64,000 nucleotides of DNA from positions 3,100,001 through 3,164,000 of the forward strand of contig NZ_AP023174.1 in NCBI RefSeq assembly GCF_013426895.1, read 5' to 3'. The notes under the pieces were generated by a model, which ran no database searches, was not told the origin of the DNA, and saw nothing but the letters and a program-made list of their open reading frames with translations. This DNA comes from Paraburkholderia largidicola (GTDB taxonomy: Bacteria; Pseudomonadota; Gammaproteobacteria; Burkholderiales; Burkholderiaceae). Positions 5,533 to 46,246 of the stretch are shown one piece after another (within the stretch, counting starts at the first letter, position 1; every line of letters starts with the position of its first letter). A program made the translations under genes and the position numbers.

Positions 5533-5626
5533 CGAAAAAAAGCCCGAACTAGCGGTTCGGGCTTAATCCACCTTAGGAGGAGGGTGGAGGAGACATGCGG
5601 AGATTGTCGAACTGCGACAACCAATG
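5533..5626 (-). ncRNA. Candidate small RNA with anti-Shine-Dalgarno motifs
   Basis: The transcript of roughly 90 nt on the minus strand is inferred from an upstream consensus promoter and a downstream terminator. It would fold as a 5' hairpin (TTGTCG-CAGTT-CGACAA), then an unpaired pyrimidine-rich stretch holding two CTCC-repeat motifs (TCTCCTCC and CCTCCTCC), then a strong terminator hairpin AAGCCCGAAC/GTTCGGGCTT (5540-5564) with a seven-T run. The exposed motifs are complementary to AGGAGG-type ribosome binding sites. Small RNAs with such motifs are known in Alphaproteobacteria (cuckoo-type) and I recall similar ones in Burkholderia; identity with a named one is not established here. Confidence 0.75.
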
Positions 5627-6446: not shown

Positions 6447-6459
6447 TCATTTGAGCGGC

Positions 6460-6869
<410 letters not shown>

Positions 6870-16714: not shown

Positions 16715-18172
<1,458 letters not shown>

Positions 18173-18252
18173 TCTCTTTTATTGCCTGCGGCGGCGGTTG
18201 GTTTTGGGTTTGCTGTTCGCAGGGTTTTCGATGTGGTTTGCTTTGAGTTTTT

Positions 18253-18916
18253 TTCGCTGGCATCCGCGTTTTGTTAGCGTGCTTCAGGCGTCGCCCCTGT
18301 GCGGGGCGGCACCTACTTTTCTTTGCCGCCGCAAAGAAAAGTAGGCAAAAGAAAGCGGCTCACACCGCCAGTCCTTGTTCCTGCCTGAGGGCCCCCAAAG
18401 GGTCTTACACTTCACACGGCAACCACGTGACCCACGTTCGTTGCCAGCGCGCTTACGGTGCGCCTCACCCGCTTCACGCTCCCGCACTACAGCGACCCTT
18501 GCCAGACACTCCTCTGCCGCCCAGGTGGCAAACGGTGTGCAGGCCGCAAGTGCTCCACACGCCTCACTCCGGACCGATAGCGCATGCGTCAGACGCTGTA
18601 AGAACGCCAGGCTATACGCCGCGACAACCTACACACAGTTTGCCACCTGGGCGGCATATATCATTCGCTGCCGTCTGCCTTTGTATGGGTGCCTGACGCG
18701 GGTGATGCGATTGTTCGAAGCGTTGGCAACGAGAACGGGCCAGGGCACTGCCGTGTGAAGGATGGGGACGTTGGGGGCCCGTGGATAGGAACACGGGCTG
18801 GCGGTGTGAGCCGCTTTCTTTTGCCTACTTTTCTTTGCGGCGGCAAAGAAAAGTAGGTGCCGCCCCGCACAGGGGCAACGCTCGAAGCACCAATAACATC
18901 TAGCGGACGCCAGAGC
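18253..18916 (+). repeat. Long inverted-repeat element, copy A
   Basis: A non-coding block of about 664 bp between convergent purB and the gluconokinase gene. Its ends are a perfect 78-bp terminal inverted repeat (18294-18371 and 18798-18875), identical to the ends of copy B at 44474-45136. Each terminal repeat contains a 14-bp perfect hairpin (CTACTTTTCTTTGC with a 4-nt loop, at 18313-18344 and 18825-18856). A second inverted pair of 28 bp lies inside (18516-18543 and 18628-18655), and GC-rich spacers differ between halves. The reverse complement of copy B aligns with it end to end. Many short open frames cross it in all frames, but none is convincing. No transposase gene is present. The flank 18173-18252 is G/T-rich with about four A; the flank 18917-19007 is A/C-rich with about four T. 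Confidence 0.85.
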
Positions 18917-19007
18917 AAAACACCAAAACCACCACAAACAAAAACGGCCCGCGCAGCAAAAAAAAACGACCACCGCTAACGGGCCATCAACCAACCACTA
19001 CAAAACA

Positions 19008-19502
19008 CTACCTCGCGCGAAACTGACTGAGCGTCTCCTCAACGATCTGCTCGGGCGTGAGCTCGATACTCACAGTAATAGCCTCATCATCACCAGGCTC
19101 TTCCAGCGTATCGAGCTGACTCTGCAGCAAAGAAGGATCAAAGAAATGCCCAGTGCGTGTCTGCAGACGCTCCTGCAGCACTTCCCGCGAACCCTTGAGA
19201 TAAACGAAGCACACATCCTTATCGCCCGCGCGCAGGATATCGCGATACGAACGCTTCAAAGAAGAACAAGTAAACACCGCATCTTCATGCGCCGCCTGCT
19301 TCTCCTCGATCGCGGCGCGAATCGTCCTGAGCCACGGCCAGCGATCATCGTCCGTCAGCGGAATGCCGTTGTGCATCTTCTCCTTGTTGGCAGCGCTGTG
19401 AAACGCATCGCCGTCGGTGAAACTGCACTTGAGCCGCTCCGCCAGCATTTCGCCAATGCGGGTCTTGCCGGCGCCCGACACGCCCATCGCGATCAAAATC
19501 AT
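19008..19502 (-). CDS. gntK: Gluconokinase
   Basis: A 164-residue thermoresistant-type gluconokinase (shikimate kinase-like fold) that phosphorylates D-gluconate to 6-phosphogluconate, the substrate of Edd. The P-loop GVSGAGKT is at residues 8-15. The family motif FTDGDAFHSAANKEKMHNGIPLTDDDRWPWL follows, and SLKRSYRD and GHFFDPSLLQSQ are diagnostic. It begins 10 bp after the gluconate permease stop and is translated from the same message. Its 3' end abuts the A/C-rich flank of repeat element A. Confidence 0.94.
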   Translation of the reverse strand: MILIAMGVSGAGKTRIGEMLAERLKCSFTDGDAFHSAANKEKMHNGIPLTDDDRWPWLRTIRAAIEEKQAAHEDAVFTCSSLKRSYRDILRAGDKDVCFVYLKGSREVLQERLQTRTGHFFDPSLLQSQLDTLEEPGDDEAITVSIELTPEQIVEETLSQFRAR

Positions 19503-43630: not shown

Positions 43631-43695
43631 CTTCTTGCCCGGAACTTGCGTGTGGGTGAAGGTTTGCGCGGAACATCGAAAGCCGTTCTACAATG

Positions 43696-43708
43696 CTGGT
43701 CAGACCGC
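43696..43708. promoter_or_regulatory. Operator 3 for the FadR-type regulator (overlapping its own leader)
   Basis: GGTC-A-GACC core at 43698-43706, ending 23 bp before the regulator start. This argues for autoregulation and against the more upstream start at 43693. Confidence 0.65.
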
Positions 43709-43728
43709 ACCGAGCCGCCGCCGACATT

Positions 43729-44421
43729 ATGAAAAACGTGCCGCACACTGTTACCGACTCCGCCATCTCGACGATTCGCGAGAGGATCGAGGGCGGCGTT
43801 TATCCCGTCGGCAGTTTGTTGCCGGCGCAGCGGCAATTGTCGGAGGAACTGGATATCAGTCGCGCGTCTTTGCGCGAAGCGCTATCGACGCTCGAGGCGC
43901 TCGGGCTGTTGACTATTCGCCCCGGCAAGGGCGTGTATGTGCAATCGACGAAGGCGTCGTCGGCGCATCCCTGGCGTTTCGCGGATCAGTCGTCGCTGCC
44001 GGATACTTATCAGATGCGCTTCGCGCTGGAAGGGTTTGTCGCGAGGATGGCTGCGCTGGCGATTGGCGATGATGATGTCGAGTGGTTCGAGGACAATATT
44101 GCTTCGTTACACACAGCGCTGACCAATGGCGAACTCGACGATGCCGCGCAGCTTGATTTTGACTTTCATATGCGGATCGTTGCGATTGCGGGCAATGCTG
44201 CTATCGAGTCGATTTTGCGTAGTAGCGCTGACATCATGAAGGAGAGTCAGCGGATGCCGTTCTATCGGCGTGAGCTTGTGCTGACTACTTATCATGAGCA
44301 TCGTGCGATTCTCGATGCGCTAAAGGCGCGCGATCCGCATGTGGCTGGTCTGGCCATCGAGAAGCATATTGCGAATGCGGCGCAACGCGCTGGGGTTTAT
44401 TTTCCTACGCCGCAGGTTTGA
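43729..44421 (+). CDS. GntR family regulator, FadR subfamily
   Basis: A 230-residue regulator with an N-terminal winged helix (residues 8-70: ISTIRERIEGGVYPVGSLLPAQRQLSEELDISRASLREALSTLEALGLL). An all-helical FCD ligand domain follows (about 85-225), with metal-binding type residues near DFDFHMRIVAIAGNAAI and YHEHRAILDALKARD. It likely controls the divergent dctA and itself through the three GGTC-N-GACC sites; the ligand may be a dicarboxylate or glyoxylate-type acid. The start at 43729 is preferred over 43693, which overlaps operator 3. The 3' half (from about 44000) shifts to T-ending codons, unlike the first half, and abuts repeat element B. Confidence 0.9.
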   Translation: MKNVPHTVTDSAISTIRERIEGGVYPVGSLLPAQRQLSEELDISRASLREALSTLEALGLLTIRPGKGVYVQSTKASSAHPWRFADQSSLPDTYQMRFALEGFVARMAALAIGDDDVEWFEDNIASLHTALTNGELDDAAQLDFDFHMRIVAIAGNAAIESILRSSADIMKESQRMPFYRRELVLTTYHEHRAILDALKARDPHVAGLAIEKHIANAAQRAGVYFPTPQV

Positions 44422-44473: not shown

Positions 44474-45136
44474 TTCGCTGGCATCCGCGGTTTGCTTCTG
44501 GTTCGCATGCGTTGCCCCTGTGCGGGGCGGCACCTACTTTTCTTTGCCGCCGCAAAGAAAAGTAGGCAAAAGAAAGCGGCTCACACCGCCAGCACGTGTT
44601 CTTATCCACGGGCTCCCAACGTCCCCACCCTTCACACGGCAACGCCCTTGTTCGCCTGCGTTGCCAACGCACTGAATGAACGCCTCACCCGCTTCAAACG
44701 CCCGCACACGGGCCGGCGGCAGCGAATGGTTGCTGCCGCCCAGGTGGCAAACTGTGTGTAGGTTGTCGCGTTGTATAGCCTGGCGCTCTTACACGGTAGA
44801 ACGCGTGCGCGATCGGTTCGAAGTGAGGCGTGTGGAGCACTTGGGCCTACACACAGTTTGCCACCTGGGCGGCAGAGGAGTGTCTGGCAAGGGTCGCTGT
44901 AGTGCGGGAGCGTGAAGCGGGTGAGGCGCACCGTAAGCGCGCTGGCAACGAACGTGAGTCACGTGGTTGCCGTCTGAAGTGTAAGACCCTTTGGGGGCCC
45001 TCAGGCAGGAACAAGGACTGGCGGTGTGAGCCGCTTTCTTTTGCCTACTTTTCTTTGCGGCGGCAAAGAAAAGTAGGTGCCGCCCCGCACAGGGGCAACG
45101 CTTGAAGCACAACAACAAAACGCGGATGCAAGCGAA
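44474..45136 (-). repeat. Long inverted-repeat element, copy B
   Basis: The second copy of the element at 18253-18916, in opposite orientation and nearly the same length (663 against 664 bp). The 78-bp ends (44515-44592 and 45018-45095) are identical to those of copy A, with internal hairpins at 44534-44565 and 45045-45076. The 28-bp internal inverted pair is at 44735-44762 and 44846-44873. Its right half matches the left half of copy A when reverse-complemented, and vice versa. Homology between its own two flanks continues outward in part (a GCGACGCTGGG block at about 44448-44460 and, inverted, about 45153-45166). It again lies between a convergent gene pair, the FadR-type gene and gap. Confidence 0.85.
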
Positions 45137-45235: not shown

Positions 45236-46246
45236 TTACTTCGCGTTAGCCAGTGCAACCGCCGTATCCAACATGCGGTTCGAGAAACCCCACTCGTTGT
45301 CGTACCAGCTCGACACCTTCACCAGACGGCCCGACACCTTGGTCAGCGTTGCATCGAACGTCGACGAAGCCGGGTTGTGGTTGAAGTCGATCGAGACCAG
45401 CGGCGCCGAGTTGTACCCGAGAATGCCCTTCAGCGCGCCTTCCGACGCTTCCTTCATGATCGCATTCACTTCATCGACCGTCGTGTCGCGCTTGGCGATG
45501 AACGACAGATCGACGATCGACACGTTGATGGTCGGGACGCGGATCGCGTAGCCATCCAGCTTGCCGTTCAGTTCCGGCAGCACCAGACCGACAGCCGATG
45601 CTGCACCCGTCTTCGTCGGAATCTGGCTATGCGTGGCCGAACGCGCGCGGCGCAGGTCTTCGTGGTACACGTCGGTCAGCACCTGGTCGTTCGTGTACGC
45701 GTGGATCGTGGTCATCAGACCCGTTTCCAGACCGATCTTGTCGTTCAGCGGCTTGACGAGCGGCGCAAGGCAGTTCGTCGTGCACGATGCGTTCGAGATG
45801 ACCGTGTGCTCGGCCTTCAGCACGTTGTGGTTCACGCCGTAGACGATCGTCGCGTCGACGTCCTTGCCGCCCGGCGCCGAGATGATCACCTTCTTTGCGC
45901 CGCCCTTGATGTGCGCGCTCGCCTTTTCCTTCGTCGTGAAGAAGCCCGTGCATTCCATCACGACGTCGACGCCCAGTTCGCCCCACGGCAGCTCAGCCGG
46001 GTTGCGGTTGGCCAGCACGCGGATCTTGTCGCCGTTGACGATCAGGTTCTCGCCGTCGACGGTCACTTCGCCCGGGAACTTGCCATGCGCCGTGTCGTAC
46101 TGCGTCAGGTGCGCGTTGGTCTTGGCGTCGCCAAGATCGTTGATCGCGACGATCTCGAGGTCGTGCTTCTTGCCGTTTTCATAGAAGGCGCGCAGCGTGT
46201 TGCGGCCGATCCGGCCATAGCCGTTGATTGCGACGCGAATCGTCAT
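45236..46246 (-). CDS. gap: Glyceraldehyde-3-phosphate dehydrogenase, type I
   Basis: A 336-residue NAD-dependent enzyme oxidising glyceraldehyde 3-phosphate to 1,3-bisphosphoglycerate. The Rossmann motif INGYGRIGR is at residues 7-15. Catalytic Cys155 lies in [13 protein letters not shown], and the partner His is in the [10 protein letters not shown] block. It follows tkt by 109 bp in the same direction; the pair links the pentose phosphate and Entner-Doudoroff routes to lower glycolysis. Confidence 0.97.

Follow-up and report, generated by a model that had tools for sequence, protein, structure and literature searches.

Here, we analyse a 64,000-nt window of the Paraburkholderia largidicola genome (NZ_AP023174.1, positions 3,100,001-3,164,000 of the forward strand; coordinates below are window positions) and, within it, a 664-bp palindromic element at 18253..18916, copy A, which lies between the genes for adenylosuccinate lyase (purB) and gluconokinase. 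Copy A is one member of a repeat family, numbering about 170-190 elements, that occupies 1.2-1.3% of the 9.47-Mb genome (G000). That such a repeat family exists and that its members evolve in concert is well supported, and we hold both with high confidence. The whole explanation is that giant palindromic repeats with ends like those of repetitive extragenic palindromes (REPs) sit behind genes, exchange sequence with one another and may offer their ends as transcription terminators; judged from sequence comparison, we give it a probability of roughly 0.55.

A search for further copies, proposed in the initial annotation of the window, recovered the family elsewhere in this genome as well as in other Paraburkholderia. 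The hairpin core (up to three mismatches) gave 342 matches in the genome and its reversed-pattern control gave none, so chance is excluded; among the 100 of these matches that were listed, most were paired about 511 bp apart. Matches to a 27-bp end sequence number 191 on one strand and 183 on the other. Across the genus, the end was present in 48 of 58 genomes, with counts ranging between one match and about 250 per strand, while sampling of the bacterial family as a whole found it in 31 of 200 genomes and 3 of 25 genera. The named matches (80 of at least 120) fell in Paraburkholderia, Caballeronia and 'Burkholderia sp.', with short matches (10-13% of the query) on replicons of the Burkholderia cepacia group. 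Forty-seven of 120 named loci yielded 49 complete elements and 73 yielded none; all 49 are long palindromes with 402-737 bp between their ends, and their folding energies lie well below those of shuffled sequences (five each).

Self-comparison and an inverted-repeat search confirmed the block where the initial annotation had placed it, together with its terminal inverted pair, which is exact over 79 bp (18293..18371 and 18798..18876; 78 bp had been claimed) and nested in 120-nt arms that are 92% complementary (18279-18398 and 18771-18890). The hairpin described in each terminal arm is present at 18312..18345 and 18824..18857, with a perfect stem of 15 bp rather than 14 and a 4-nt loop. The inner inverted pair (18515..18543 and 18628..18656) was also recovered, as 29 nt at 93% complementarity instead of the 28 bp reported. 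Copy A matches its own reverse complement at 72% over element positions 5-661 and therefore consists of two facing units, as had been proposed. The REP-like end motif, GTAGGTGCC-GCCCCGCACAGGGGC, stands at 18853..18876 (+) and inverted at 18293..18316, where the minus strand reads GTAGGTGCC with GCCCC-GCACA-GGGGC; the left outer arm (18256..18292) occurs in haplotypes that vary among copies.

Conservation across 86 copies drawn from three genomes is highest in the regions corresponding to 18288-18350, 18357-18371 and 18798-18881, followed by the inner pair (18516-18540 and 18629-18655), and in the remaining 20-bp bins of the interior the majority base accounts for 72-92%. The terminal hairpin has three main versions in which both stem sides have changed and pairing has stayed perfect (171, 64 and 27 of 303 perfect-stem ends). 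A further 35 ends lack a perfect stem, including those in arrays, at insertion sequence junctions and in the shortened copies described below as minis. Some copies are flanked by tandem outer units spaced 104 bp apart. Inspected by eye, the DNA bordering copies on the left is rich in G and T and that bordering them on the right in C and A, and simple repeats occur here and there.

With a GTAG-type tetranucleotide beside a GC-rich hairpin, hundreds of intergenic ends per genome and inverted doublets as the unit, as the counts on the two strands indicate, the family resembles REP sequences and their doublets (REPINs). The initial proposal of a REP or bacterial interspersed mosaic element (BIME) type on an unusually large scale is thus the best fit. 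GTAG forms are listed in Table 1 of Nunvar et al. (2010, PMC2817692), the main text of which does not contain the word 'Burkholderia'; here, five bases separate GTAG from the 5-bp core stem, a looser spacing than in the listed REPs. REPIN doublets are modelled at 71 and 110 bp in passages of Nunvar et al. (2010, PMC2817692) and Bertels and Rainey (2011, PMC3116915), whereas in this family the hairpins lie about 511 bp apart and the interior is itself a long palindrome. The family further differs in having sites common to several species, with free exchange among copies, and no REP-associated tyrosine transposase (RAYT) above cut-off. We do not class it as a REPIN because size and RAYT association were both tested: the doublet exceeds the expected ~70-110 bp, and no RAYT gene flanked by the same REPs was found in G000. 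In its workings, the family resembles a REP/REPIN-class repeat.

The pattern of variation among copies indicates that they exchange sequence. We compared 400-kb syntenic stretches holding 11 G000 sites across three genomes (G000, G065 and G076) and the more distant G019; the identity comparison excluded copies interrupted by insertion sequences (G000 sites 3 and 10; G076 sites 7 and 10) and the G065 minis at sites 1 and 8. Orthologous copies were 82.5% identical (19 pairs) vs. 81.7% for other cross-species pairs (189), and copies within a genome exceeded both values and reached 85.0% (92 pairs). The effect of site on identity was not significant, with 151 of 2000 within-genome site permutations as high. 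All 86 copies in the three genomes tested had their nearest neighbour in their own genome. Linkage disequilibrium (LD) was examined in 39 of the 40 G000 copies (the best matches to copy A, with no random draw; L015 excluded), 27 in G076 and 20 in G019. Respective r2 values were 0.37, 0.47 and 0.40 below 4 bp, and 0.03, 0.07 and 0.07 at 50-100 bp, near background, where the four-gamete fraction was 0.96, 0.90 and 0.87. Four coalescent simulations without recombination or indels gave an r2 that stayed level with distance (0.24-0.70), most of their four-gamete fractions were under 0.2, and a star-like burst would be expected to leave no short-range linkage. From the grouping by genome and the decay of linkage within tens of bases, we infer that dispersed copies recombine by exchanging short stretches, which amounts to concerted evolution, probably through ectopic gene conversion. 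A small point on the other side is the long-range r2 of G076, which at 0.06 slightly exceeds the 0.04 expected under independence.

Matching between the left and right arms of single copies, suggested by eye, was rejected by permutation (own 0.792 vs. others 0.772; 377 of 5000 permutations as high; 38 of 40 copies, L015 and L048 excluded). Concentric, onion-like flanks were likewise discarded, since own left-right flank scores did not rise above those of other copies (39 of 40 G000 copies). In the named genomes, such an excess did arise (e.g., 0 of 10,000 permutations at 70-130 bp), but species is a confounder there and the result was set aside.

Of the 11 G000 sites, G065 and G076 share ten, the flanks of which are 87-99% identical; in G065, two of these ten hold minis, in which the outer arms are joined into a palindrome of ~90 bp. 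The ten sites mapped in G019 comprise three full elements, two minis and five empty sites (the eleventh was unmapped), and site 5 is occupied in G000 only. Repeated loss to the mini, followed by new insertion of whole elements where they had been before, has been weighed as a substitute for gene conversion. It would explain minis at orthologous sites, but replacing whole elements cannot break linkage at tens of bases, and minis look rare, with five in G019 and one in G076 (at most one mismatch) among the matches listed for these genomes. We therefore regard this sequence of events as very improbable.

The same sites bear on the suggestion that the block is a non-autonomous mobile element. A miniature inverted-repeat transposable element (MITE) or REPIN-like element still spread by a transposase acting in trans, with the ends as transposase sites, would account for ends that are inverted and nearly invariant and for sites that are filled in one genome and empty elsewhere, such as site 5 and the five of ten in G019. 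To this extent, the difference in sites between genomes bears the suggestion out. Against it, positions are mostly shared (10 of 11 common to the three genomes), LD is not tree-like, and copy A holds no gene; frames of 85-141 aa cross it on both strands. The check for empty sites and target duplications succeeded in its first half only: no duplication was readable at the empty sites compared, because the gaps are too dissimilar. Like this family, MITEs, ERIC and NEMIS-type repeats are non-coding, with inverted ends and many copies; here, no target duplication could be read at the empty sites, and the 16 interrupted copies examined revealed no parent transposon with the same ends.

Candidates for a mobilising enzyme fared no better. 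Y1_Tnp-like genes (L155, L156 and L338-L345) occur twice per genome in all six genomes searched; their scores of 43-55 bits fall short of the 80 set as the cut-off for REP-associated transposases. No element ends lie beside the two divergent genes of G000, which seem to have lost the HUH motif, as they read AVQ where the HUH pair would be expected; the genes are perhaps domesticated. A RAYT as mobiliser is thus unsupported, with scores below cut-off and, in G000, no adjoining element ends. Neither the search of six genomes for REP-associated transposases nor the examination of 16 interrupted copies revealed an enzyme that mobilises the element. The initial suggestion of mobility therefore stands without a transposase bearing these ends, a readable duplication or a REP-associated transposase above cut-off, and we consider ongoing spread by a transposase unlikely.

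The interrupted copies hold insertion sequences (ISs) placed into the element, 17 insertions in the 16 copies examined. Six interrupt the terminal hairpin at its apex. Four of these, in L015, L056, L058 and G000 site 10, are an IS481-family element (the first three inserts being 98.7-99.5% identical in protein to a fourth); G076 site 10 holds one closely related to it, and G076 site 7 what we presume to be an IS resembling IS66. Nine are at the inner foot of the hairpin. Three of them are IS30-family elements of 1099 bp (L053 1220-2318, L054 1726-2824 and L055 1705-2803) with a 3-bp duplication by eye, that of L053 being 99.4% and 99.9% identical to the other two. The remaining six are inserts of ~1.2 kb, found in all six G019 copies sampled (L352-L357), and are neither the IS481- nor the IS30-family element. 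Two Mutator/IS256-type copies, in G000 sites 3 and 10, lie in the interior. With 15 of 17 insertions at the hairpin, the distribution suggests that the terminal hairpin is exposed in the cell.

How exchange might be driven is a matter of conjecture. The palindrome could extrude hairpins that are broken and then repaired from other copies, which would produce conversion; new sites would arise occasionally by some activity, and the long interior may be lost, perhaps by slippage, to leave the ~90-bp mini. We treat break-driven conversion as a tentative idea with the odds against it. Equally speculative, and to us doubtful, is the picture of the copies as a freely recombining 'population' in which breaks at ~180 palindromes are mutually repaired and the repeats refresh themselves, and perhaps spread, while serving as terminators.

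Repair from other copies would also sustain a selfish or structural recombination element whose palindromes persist without benefit to the host. Free exchange among copies fits such an element, as do orthologous copies that differ in orientation at sites 2, 7 and 11 and a segment of ~1.4 kb between sites 5 and 6 (G000:C1:3079269-3080653) that is inverted relative to G065, G076 and G019, the outcome expected from recombination between facing copies. The nuclease subunit SbcD can be cited in its favour, too: it scored above its curated cut-off in six of 58 genus genomes and below it in 52, including G000, G065, G076, G019 and G020. Many of the 52 have matches of 42-57 bits, which may be divergent nucleases. 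G066, however, passes for SbcD and yet has the most copies, an observation that counts against this alternative and against our own explanation alike, and loss of SbcCD as a permissive cause was rejected because it does not track copy number. Ends that are far more constrained than the interior and read as terminators, and a location behind genes, are also hard to square with a purely selfish element, which we think rather unlikely.

The explanation that includes a role at gene ends draws on where the copies lie. Based on a simple codon-usage gene caller, the neighbours of the 40 G000 copies are convergent in 21 cases, co-directional in 15 and divergent in three, with one unclear. Element-free gaps of at least 100 bp in a 400-kb G000 stretch numbered 25 convergent, 91 co-directional and 39 divergent, giving a convergent excess (21/39 copies vs. 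25/155 gaps, p = 3.7 × 10−6) and a divergent deficit (3/39 vs. 39/155, p = 0.017). The 19 G076 copies (nine convergent, eight co-directional, two unclear) and the 20 G019 copies (nine, eight, one divergent and two unclear) showed a similar distribution. The copies thus occupy predicted 3′ ends of genes, with an excess in convergent gaps and few in divergent ones.

Read inward on either strand, the ends show a hairpin followed by ACCTACTTTT, like intrinsic terminators: 18293..18316 on the plus strand for transcripts arriving from purB (16784..18172, +) and 18853..18876 on the minus strand for those arriving from the convergent gntK-type gluconokinase gene (gntK; 19008..19502, −). Eight terminator-like sites were predicted within 18150-19030, vs. 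1.8 in shuffles, and four of them overlap the 79-bp ends. Under the proposed explanation, each nearly invariant end would be an intrinsic terminator that faces inward, and a single copy could thereby serve both converging genes. In its position between convergent genes and its inward hairpins with T-rich tracts, the element is comparable to a bidirectional intrinsic terminator; it differs in being repeated genome-wide, homogenised and much larger than the element-free purB-gntK gaps, which span 112-212 bp.

Sites lacking the element provide a comparison. The purB locus was matched in 58 genomes and examined in 30, of which 24 lack the element. Among the 19 of these scanned (in the other five gntK was not found or was far off), 18 have a strong terminator on both strands of the purB-gntK gap. 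Strong terminators were also found at empty sites 5, 7 and 10 of the five in G019 and at site 5 in G065 and G076; the scan returned none at empty G019 sites 2 and 4, site 4 having a hairpin and T-tract by eye. Beside the element, a strong terminator lies within 130 bp in 2 of the 22 flanks of the 11 G000 sites, and a separate terminator precedes it at 6 of 65 facing gene ends (40 copies); among control ends, the count was 30 of 70 for convergent and 21 of 110 for co-directional genes.

Several results weigh against a terminator role. The contrast of 6/65 with 30/70 is inflated by longer control stretches. Once lengths are matched (facing stretches of at most 250 bp), it shrinks to 3/46 vs. about 15-16/70 convergent ends (p = 0.036), and against co-directional ends (about 7-8/110) there is no difference. 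Pooled convergent gaps in four genomes, which are not independent, gave 11/29 vs. 90/156 (p = 0.067). A laxer scan placed a weak terminator-like site beyond either border of copy A (18181-18198 and 18933-18953), the site 10 terminators of G019 persist beside the element in other genomes, and no strong terminator was found in the G065 purB-gntK gap, which holds a mini only. Terminator function, moreover, does not require 664 bp. The bidirectional transcription barrier suggested at the outset is therefore plausible from its terminator-like ends, at a little below even odds, with statistics that weaken once lengths are matched. The element may replace a terminator at some sites, not as an established rule.

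The strong predicted fold of the element (−447 kcal/mol vs. a mean of −258 in 20 dinucleotide shuffles, z = −31.5) could instead point to a structured regulatory RNA family, with ends that are small RNA (sRNA) genes and a large RNA made from the whole. The Rfam family RF02421 (Bp1_684) matches the ends of copy A at 18219..18322 (−, 42.0 bits) and 18847..18934 (+, 27.9 bits), below the gathering score of 44, which some other copies exceed. This Rfam family spans ~105 bp at the outside of each end, comprising the REP-like hairpin, outer arm and flank, so 'undescribed' no longer applies to the ends and still does to the element as a whole. Bp1_Cand684 is described as an sRNA gene and appears in a table of candidates validated by reverse transcription PCR (Khoo et al. 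2012, PMC3521395), the main text of which contains neither 'repeat' nor 'palindrom', words also absent from passages of a B. thailandensis sRNA paper (PMC4035088). What Rfam and Khoo et al. treat as an sRNA gene is here the end of a larger palindromic repeat. G000 has at least 139 RF02421 matches (all 139 candidates scored, of 1471), copy A is symmetric on both strands, and no sigma-70-like promoter site was found there. Partners in the interior arms, set by symmetry about the midpoint, do not covary (r2 = 0.023-0.027, equal to background). The interior palindrome is therefore not maintained by compensatory change within single copies, and selected RNA structure in the interior was rejected. 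We consider a regulatory RNA family highly unlikely. In G094, of another genus, the locus matched by RF02421 is a lone unit with one hairpin.

Five exact stretches of the element had no match in the open-licence literature, where absence is no proof, and none of the open-licence titles and abstracts on Burkholderia repeats, palindromes, MITEs, REPIN/RAYT, SbcCD or concerted palindrome evolution describes this family. A second copy in the window, copy B (44477..45133), lies between genes at 43693-44421 (+) and 45236-46246 (−) that converge on it; these neighbours are a gene for a GntR-type regulator and one resembling GAPDH/erythrose-4-phosphate dehydrogenase. Elsewhere in the window, Rfam places RNase P RNA at 6456-6869 (−) and the Betaproteobacteria toxic small RNA (RF02278) at 5534-5595 (−).

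Gene conversion as a mode of REP evolution was reportedly the question posed by the title of a 1988 review. That question becomes directly testable here, in a family that takes up more than 1% of its genome: sites are shared, the genomes are closed, 20-39 copies could be compared in each, and linkage decays clearly. In the light of this family, an sRNA candidate in Rfam becomes the end of a repeat, and insertion sequences that aim at hairpins may merit study. The family is relevant, too, to the termination of transcription between genes in this genus and to the survival of long palindromes in bacteria that seldom have a recognisable SbcD. If the proposed break-repair drive is true, it would keep a non-coding element at gene ends uniform without a transposase.
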